Origin: Anaerolineales bacterium
GTDB lineage: Bacteria > Chloroflexota > Anaerolineae > Anaerolineales > E44-bin32
Assembly: GCA_037382465.1 (NCBI GenBank)
Contig: JARRPX010000004.1
Location: 1-64,000, forward strand
Reading direction: 5' to 3'
Length of the DNA: 64,000 nt
The number at the start of each line of letters is the position of its first letter. Position 1 is the stretch's first letter. Shown here one piece after another: positions 12,483 to 13,555 of the stretch. The notes beneath the pieces are model-generated. The model worked only from the letters and a program-made list of their open reading frames with translations. It searched no databases and was not told where the DNA came from. The position numbers were made by a program, and so were the translations under genes.

Positions 12483-12698
12483 TTATTGACGGCGAAGCCA
12501 CCATAAATAGCCGACGTACCAAACGATACAGGCTACTCCAATAATGCCCCAGATCGGAAAGCCGGCTTTGAGCGCTGCGACCCAATCTGACCCGGTAAAT
12601 AGCCCGATATACATCGTTATCGAAGCCCACACGATGACGAAAGTGCCAAAGAGCCAGAATCGCATAACTTTCAAACGCTTGACCTTGTCCTCATCCAT
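12483..12698 (-). CDS. Small two-helix membrane protein
   Basis: A 71-residue protein with two hydrophobic helices (about residues 14-34 and 46-66) separated by a short loop and ending in RR-Q. GGGAGG lies eight bases upstream of the ATG, which supports translation. It follows the thioredoxin-like lipoprotein gene by about 107 bases on the same strand and may share its transcript. I recognise no family. The Trp-rich second helix and basic ends suggest an inner-membrane orientation only. Confidence 0.65.
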   Translation of the reverse strand: MDEDKVKRLKVMRFWLFGTFVIVWASITMYIGLFTGSDWVAALKAGFPIWGIIGVACIVWYVGYLWWLRRQ

Positions 12699-12805: not shown

Positions 12806-13360
12806 TCACTTTAAGGCCTCGTTGAATGCCGCCTCCAGATCTTCGGCCTCAACGTAACCCAACCATTGATGGATCACCGTCCCGTCCTCATCTACGAGGA
12901 AAAGATGCGGCTGGACCCGGTAACCCAGCTCTCGCTTGAAAGAGTCCGTACGGGGATCGTCGATGTCGAGATAAACGAAGTCGATGTCTTCCTGCCACTT
13001 TGCTTCGAGCCCGTGCACGACGGGCGCCAATCGCTGGCAGGTCGGTCACCAGAAAGCAAAGAACTCGACCAGAGTCACCCTGCCGGAGCCCAGCTTCACG
13101 CGGCCCGGATTCGTCGCCGTTAATTCCGTACGCGGCTCCGGATGTGGTCCTGCTGCCGCTGGTTCTTCAGCTGCCGAGGCATCAGACGCTTGCGCCTGAT
13201 TCGACTCTCCTACTTCCGATCCCTCGTCCGCCGAAGAACCGGATGTTTGCGGCTGGTTTCCTTCAGCGACGCTGGAAGCAGGGCTGCCCGCCTGACAAGA
13301 TACCAAAAGGAAGGCAACCAGGAGCAATCCCATCAACACGCGAAACCTTCGCGAAGTCAT
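12806..13360 (-). CDS. Thioredoxin-fold lipoprotein, candidate selenoprotein with in-frame UGA
   Basis: Read through one TGA (13048-13046), this frame gives 184 residues. The first part is a lipoprotein signal (LLLVAFLLVSC), a Ser/Glu/Ala-rich linker and then VTLVEFFAFW-U-PTCQRLAPVVHGLE. UGA is residue 105 and falls exactly where thioredoxins have the first Cys of WCxxC; the second Cys is residue 108. Downstream the fold is complete, with VYLDIDD and the substrate-facing YRVQPHLFLVDEDGTV strand. GGAGGA precedes the ATG at 13360. Selenocysteine at this position (UxxC) is known in several redox families. The alternative is a nonsense mutation or sequence error. An extracytoplasmic thiol/disulphide role is inferred from fold and anchor. 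Confidence 0.75.
13009..13025 (-). promoter_or_regulatory. Candidate bacterial SECIS hairpin
   Basis: On the coding strand, a perfect 6-bp stem GCCCGT/ACGGGC closes a five-base loop CGTGC. The loop starts 26 bases after the in-frame TGA. Bacterial SECIS elements lie within the coding sequence shortly downstream of the UGA and commonly have a G among the first loop bases, which fits. A second small stem (GCCA/TGGC) lies between the TGA and this hairpin. Its function depends on SelB in the same genome, which cannot be seen here. Confidence 0.55.
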
Positions 13361-13555
13361 TATTCCTCCATCCAGAAGCGAAAAATCCGGCAACGGCCAA
13401 AACCCAGGCATCAATGCCAAGCTATCTACATTCTATCGCGTGATTCCCAAACGCTCGTTGAGGTCCGAAGTCGAGATCGACCAAATCGATTATCCGGTGG
13501 CAGTAACCCATCAACCGCAGTCAGGCTATAATGGAAGCAGAACAGGGAGGCCGTA

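Follow-up and report, generated by a model that had tools for sequence, protein, structure and literature searches.

A selenocysteine-containing thioredoxin-like lipoprotein of Anaerolineales with a covarying SECIS-like hairpin

The 64,000-nucleotide stretch of DNA analysed here (the window) carries, on its minus strand, a gene whose product is, with high confidence, an exported thioredoxin-like selenolipoprotein: the genome has the machinery for selenocysteine (Sec) insertion, and the UGA at the active site would be read as Sec by way of a hairpin just beyond it. This supports the original prediction of a selenoprotein, and the covariation of the hairpin provides evidence independent of that on which the prediction was based. 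What the protein does at the cell surface is considered below with more reserve.

The gene and its product

The reading frame begins at an ATG (13360-13358) and ends at a TGA (12808-12806), and when TGA is translated as U it specifies 184 amino acids, passing from MTSRRFRVLMGLLLVAFLLVSC through VEFFAFW-U-PTC to a C-terminal EALK (Table 1). The limits 12806-13360 had been given correctly in the original prediction, in which the strand was unstated; it is the minus strand, the plus-strand reading of the same interval being nonsense. The gene has a single in-frame UGA (13048-13046, minus strand), at which table-11 gene calling duly cuts it into two ORFs, 13420-13046 and 13030-12806, as had been foreseen for standard gene finders. 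The claim that no second gene of this kind lies in the window agrees with a crude scan in which an in-frame UGA, a redox motif and a SECIS-like hairpin were required together: of eight raw matches, only that at 13048 looked credible as a gene.

Table 1. Features of the selenoprotein locus (window coordinates)
Feature	Coordinates	Strand	Basis
Complete selenoprotein gene	12806..13360	-	Translation with TGA as U; full-length orthologues
Shine-Dalgarno-like GGAGG upstream of the ATG	13365..13369	-	Direct reading
Predicted lipoprotein signal peptide MTSRRFRVLMGLLLVAFLLVSC, lipobox LVSC	13295..13360	-	Translation; strict lipobox test in orthologues
Low-complexity linker rich in Ser, Ala, Glu and Pro, from anchor to catalytic domain	13124..13294	-	Translation
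Thioredoxin-fold domain	12809..13123	-	Pfam, AlphaFold2, Foldseek
UGA read as selenocysteine codon, first position of UPTC	13046..13048	-	Translation and orthologues
Resolving Cys of the UxxC motif	13037..13039	-	Translation; invariant column C30, alignment A1
SECIS-like hairpin GCCCGU(CGUGC)ACGGGC, loop 13015-13019	13009..13025	-	26 nt after UGA
71-aa hydrophobic protein directly downstream of the selenoprotein gene	12483..12698	-	Conserved there in six genomes of the same family

The N terminus combines a signal sequence with a lipobox Cys (LLVAFLLVSC), the predicted lipidated Cys being encoded at 13297-13295. A strict lipobox pattern was found in 63 of 96 orthologues, and many of the others are cut upstream or deviate from the strict pattern. 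Two orthologues (L112 and L114) have an apparent transmembrane anchor without a lipobox Cys. The catalytic domain matches PF00085 (42.9 bits; cut-off 23.5), is modelled by AlphaFold2 with a pLDDT of 96.4, and has thioredoxins as its best Foldseek matches (E about 1e-8, TM about 0.75-0.85). The thioredoxin fold is thus confidently modelled, and is carried on a predicted lipoprotein anchor.

Selenocysteine machinery and the identity of the UGA codon

The source genome (a single assembly of 3.73 Mb, 95% complete) contains selA, selB, selC and selD, a search for which had been proposed as a check on the prediction. SelA scores 456 bits, SelB 357 bits and SelD 342 bits, the last in its own frame with one in-frame TGA and with a hairpin that has GU in its loop; the tRNA-Sec scores 75 bits, above cut-off, and is called by ARAGORN as tRNA-SeC with anticodon tca. 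Searches for SelB, SelD and tRNA-Sec give weak relatives in all of the control genomes; in the source genome one match for each lies above the curated cut-off.

Fifteen close orthologues, counting the gene in the window, were found in genomes of the same taxonomic family: 14 have exactly one in-frame TGA, and the remaining one has none, with TGC at the site. At a threshold of E <= 1e-30, 157 of the 400 genomes sampled from the order have an orthologue, mostly in the Sec form, and in 122 of the 400 the listed orthologue has exactly one in-frame TGA. Ninety-six orthologues were read in detail, 64 of them with TGA at the site, 28 with TGT or TGC, and four degenerate there. The original placing of the UGA exactly at the first Cys of the thioredoxin site holds for every one of the 64 UGA forms, in which the same codon occupies the first position of UxxC; alignment of homologues, the other proposed check, puts Cys, encoded by TGT or TGC, precisely at the UGA position. 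Residues downstream of the UGA are conserved, with the resolving Cys column (C30 of alignment A1) invariant.

These observations bear on two explanations that do without Sec. Reliance on one assembly of this genome leaves room for a sequencing or assembly error at a true TGC or TGT codon, or for a recent nonsense mutation in what would now be a pseudogene, but the recurrence of the TGA in the orthologues, at the same codon in 64 and singly in those of 122 genomes, together with the intact frame, active-site Cys and downstream domain and the conserved downstream residues, makes this exceedingly improbable. A conserved gene interrupted by UGA could also be explained by reassignment of that codon, for instance to Trp, or by readthrough without selenium. 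This, too, is very improbable, given that the gene's own terminator is TGA, so that TGA serves as a stop, that Trp occupies the UGA column in none of the 96 homologues read, and that the genome has the full Sec machinery, with a covarying hairpin at the place expected for a SECIS. This leaves practically no room for a pseudogene, a sequencing error or a reassigned code.

A covarying hairpin downstream of the UGA

In the published bacterial SECIS model the stem has 4-16 bp and the loop 3-9 nt, with a G in the first two loop bases, the element lies 16-37 nt after the UGA, and its minimum free energy is at most -7.5 (PMC13188914). The hairpin in the window falls within all of these limits (stem 6, loop 5 [CGUGC], spacing 26, -9.0 kcal/mol). 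Its folding energy alone is usual for such GC-rich sequence (z 0.2 against shuffles), and the case for the hairpin is therefore built on covariation and constraint.

Among the UGA forms the hairpin has 6 bp and a loop of the form xGUxx, at a spacing of 26 nt from the UGA. It is complete in 58 of 63 distinct Sec forms, 62 of which have the inner five pairs, and the 5-nt loop is CGUGC, GGUUC, GGUGC or AGUUC. Over these 63 sequences 98.7% of cells are paired (92.0% when shuffled) and 38 are doubly changed (12.5 when shuffled), with double, compensatory changes at four of the six stem pairs; none of 500 shuffles gave a covariation score as high, and RNAalifold, unaided, recovered the same hairpin. 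One pair is AU in 36 Sec sequences and GC in the other 27, and the codons follow it without exception: Ile or Met (ATN) goes with His-CAT in the 36, and Val (GTN) with His-CAC in the 27. In another in-step change Pro-CCC with GGG becomes CCT with AGG, even where this turns Gly into Arg. The hairpin thus varies as RNA, not as protein. The ratio of observed to expected codon homozygosity is 2.3-3.6 at codons +7 to +10 and +12, is raised less strongly at +1, +2 and +4, and stays near 1 at most others; variation in the His codon at +11 reflects its covariation with codon +9. In the Cys forms (22 sequences), by contrast, 52.3% of cells are paired, which is the shuffled level.

The covariation argues strongly that this hairpin would recruit SelB with its Sec-tRNA, leading to the decoding of the UGA as selenocysteine. 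One Cys form (L141, 476-529; TGT at the site) still has the SECIS-like hairpin intact, and looks like a recent Sec-to-Cys replacement.

Distribution and evolution of Sec and Cys forms

In a sample of 400 genomes from the phylum (E <= 1e-25), matches were confined to the same order and a single genome elsewhere in the class, and the public records among the relatives are of Anaerolineae/Anaerolineales. SelA is present in 116 of 122 Sec-form genomes and in 11 of 23 Cys-form genomes (Fisher p 1.4e-7, uncorrected for relatedness); it is thus absent from six of the former, probably through incompleteness of the bins, and from 12 of the latter, many of which belong to one genus. On a tree that is unrooted and, having few columns, weakly resolved, Sec forms are scattered throughout and the number of Sec/Cys switches is roughly five to six, a pattern that would suit ancestral Sec with several losses.

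The four degenerate sites read SGPS (L116 and L140), DGAC (L133) and DGAS (L137), and to judge from these residues their owners are probably redox-dead members of the family. In one genome (G137) a second copy of the domain lies directly upstream of the seleno gene (L166:8267-8527), possibly beginning just after a UGA.

Relationship to known selenoproteins

A literature search found no description of a selenolipoprotein. Nor is the family listed separately in a 2026 catalogue that covers 119 families of prokaryotic selenoproteins (PMC13188914), although its members might be counted there with Trx (PF00085, UxxC). As no NCBIfam model was reached above its cut-off by the window protein and there is no separate catalogue entry, this is apparently an uncatalogued family of selenothioredoxin-like lipoproteins. 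The TrxA equivalog TIGR01068 was among the models tried and rejected (45.2 bits, against a cut-off of 96.8).

The original description of such exported lipoproteins as uncommon was right only in part. NCBI already has such a family, NF041057, the Rcas_1661 family thioredoxin-like (seleno)lipoproteins (named after a Roseiflexus locus), which likewise join a lipoprotein signal to a thioredoxin-like domain, with UxxC in the Sec form; but the window protein, at 23.2 bits against a cut-off of 190, belongs to a different family, and the source genome has separate relatives of NF041057, which lack an in-frame stop. NF041057 is entered in the catalogue as a DsbG-like protein (PMC13188914). The selenocysteine-containing thioredoxin listed there (PF00085, UxxC; Table 1 of PMC13188914, WP_010956703.1) has the same fold, with Sec at the first position of UxxC, whereas the window protein has, ahead of the domain, a lipoprotein signal followed by a long linker. 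The thiol:disulfide interchange selenoprotein of the same table (PF13098, UxxC) was compared by Pfam score only: PF13098 does match the window protein (33.3 bits; cut-off 27), but PF00085 matches it better.

The source genome encodes a second thioredoxin-like UGA protein (L047:1312-1785; G000:C4:185088-185360), with the motif RF-U-IAC. Its hairpin, CCCAU(CGUGG)AUGGG, has GU in the loop and the same 26-nt spacing as that of the window gene; the protein differs in having an apparent membrane anchor in place of a lipobox, and shows 30% identity to the window protein over 91 residues.

Genomic neighbourhood and possible role

In the window's own taxonomic family the constant neighbours are the 71-aa hydrophobic protein (which has no Pfam match, probably has two transmembrane segments as judged by reading its sequence, and is a possible partner of the selenoprotein), a formiminotransferase and a PGA_cap protein. 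At most loci read in two other families, genes for CsoR, a CopZ-like protein and a copper-type P-ATPase come after the gene, and beyond them lie those for an L,D-transpeptidase and, in several loci, CcdA; this copper cluster stands beside both Sec and Cys versions. (Examples of the conserved cluster from the lipoprotein to the L,D-transpeptidase, several of them with CcdA, are L160, L164, L166, L168 and L170.) Genes for prolipoprotein diacylglyceryl transferase and TlpA-like proteins are nearby in some loci. The window's own family does not have the copper cluster next to the gene, and the protein may serve another purpose there.

How might the protein act? The signal sequence and lipobox suggest that it would be exported and anchored as a lipoprotein on the outer side of the membrane. 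Following the chemistry of the thioredoxin family, the selenolate of U-P-T-C would attack a disulfide in the substrate (or else an oxidised thiol or metal-thiol species of a related kind), and the adduct would be resolved by Cys108. The resulting selenenylsulfide could then be re-reduced, as in outside reductases that work like TlpA/ResA, via a membrane electron carrier of the CcdA/DsbD type, two CcdA-type genes being present in the source genome, elsewhere from the selenoprotein gene. Selenolates favour reduction. The best-supported role would be that of a thiol-disulfide reductase that faces outwards and is itself re-reduced by CcdA, to which we would give roughly an even chance. The sequence is compatible with either direction of the reaction, reductase or oxidase/isomerase, and it is possible, if somewhat unlikely, that the selenoprotein is an outside-facing oxidase or isomerase (DsbA/DsbC-like), or a peroxidase or methionine-sulfoxide-type reductant: selenoproteins of the DsbA-like, DsbG-like and Prx-like types have UxxC sites (PMC13188914) and there is a Pfam match of Redoxin type as well, but the fold and the best sequence matches are those of thioredoxin, and in several relatives the same cluster includes CcdA, a reductant carrier.

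From the occurrence of the CsoR-CopZ-Cu-ATPase cluster and CcdA beside the gene in two related families, we infer that part of the role of the CcdA-fed reductase is probably the protection or re-reduction of cell-surface thiols under copper or oxidative stress, though we would rate this a little short of evenly balanced. The copper link is suggestive, and applies to part of the family only.

Significance

A broader picture may be offered tentatively, as possible rather than probable: that this mostly order-confined and ancestrally Sec-containing family provides a relay for selenium-based redox chemistry at the outer membrane surface, linked to CcdA and to copper handling, in which Sec has repeatedly been replaced by Cys and from which paralogues lacking the redox motif have arisen. 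The selenoproteome of Chloroflexota gains a widespread, apparently uncatalogued family, whose genes are cut in two by standard ORF calling. With the hairpin kept in the Sec forms and lost in the Cys forms, the family also provides a clean natural series for Sec-to-Cys replacement and for the SelB recognition element.
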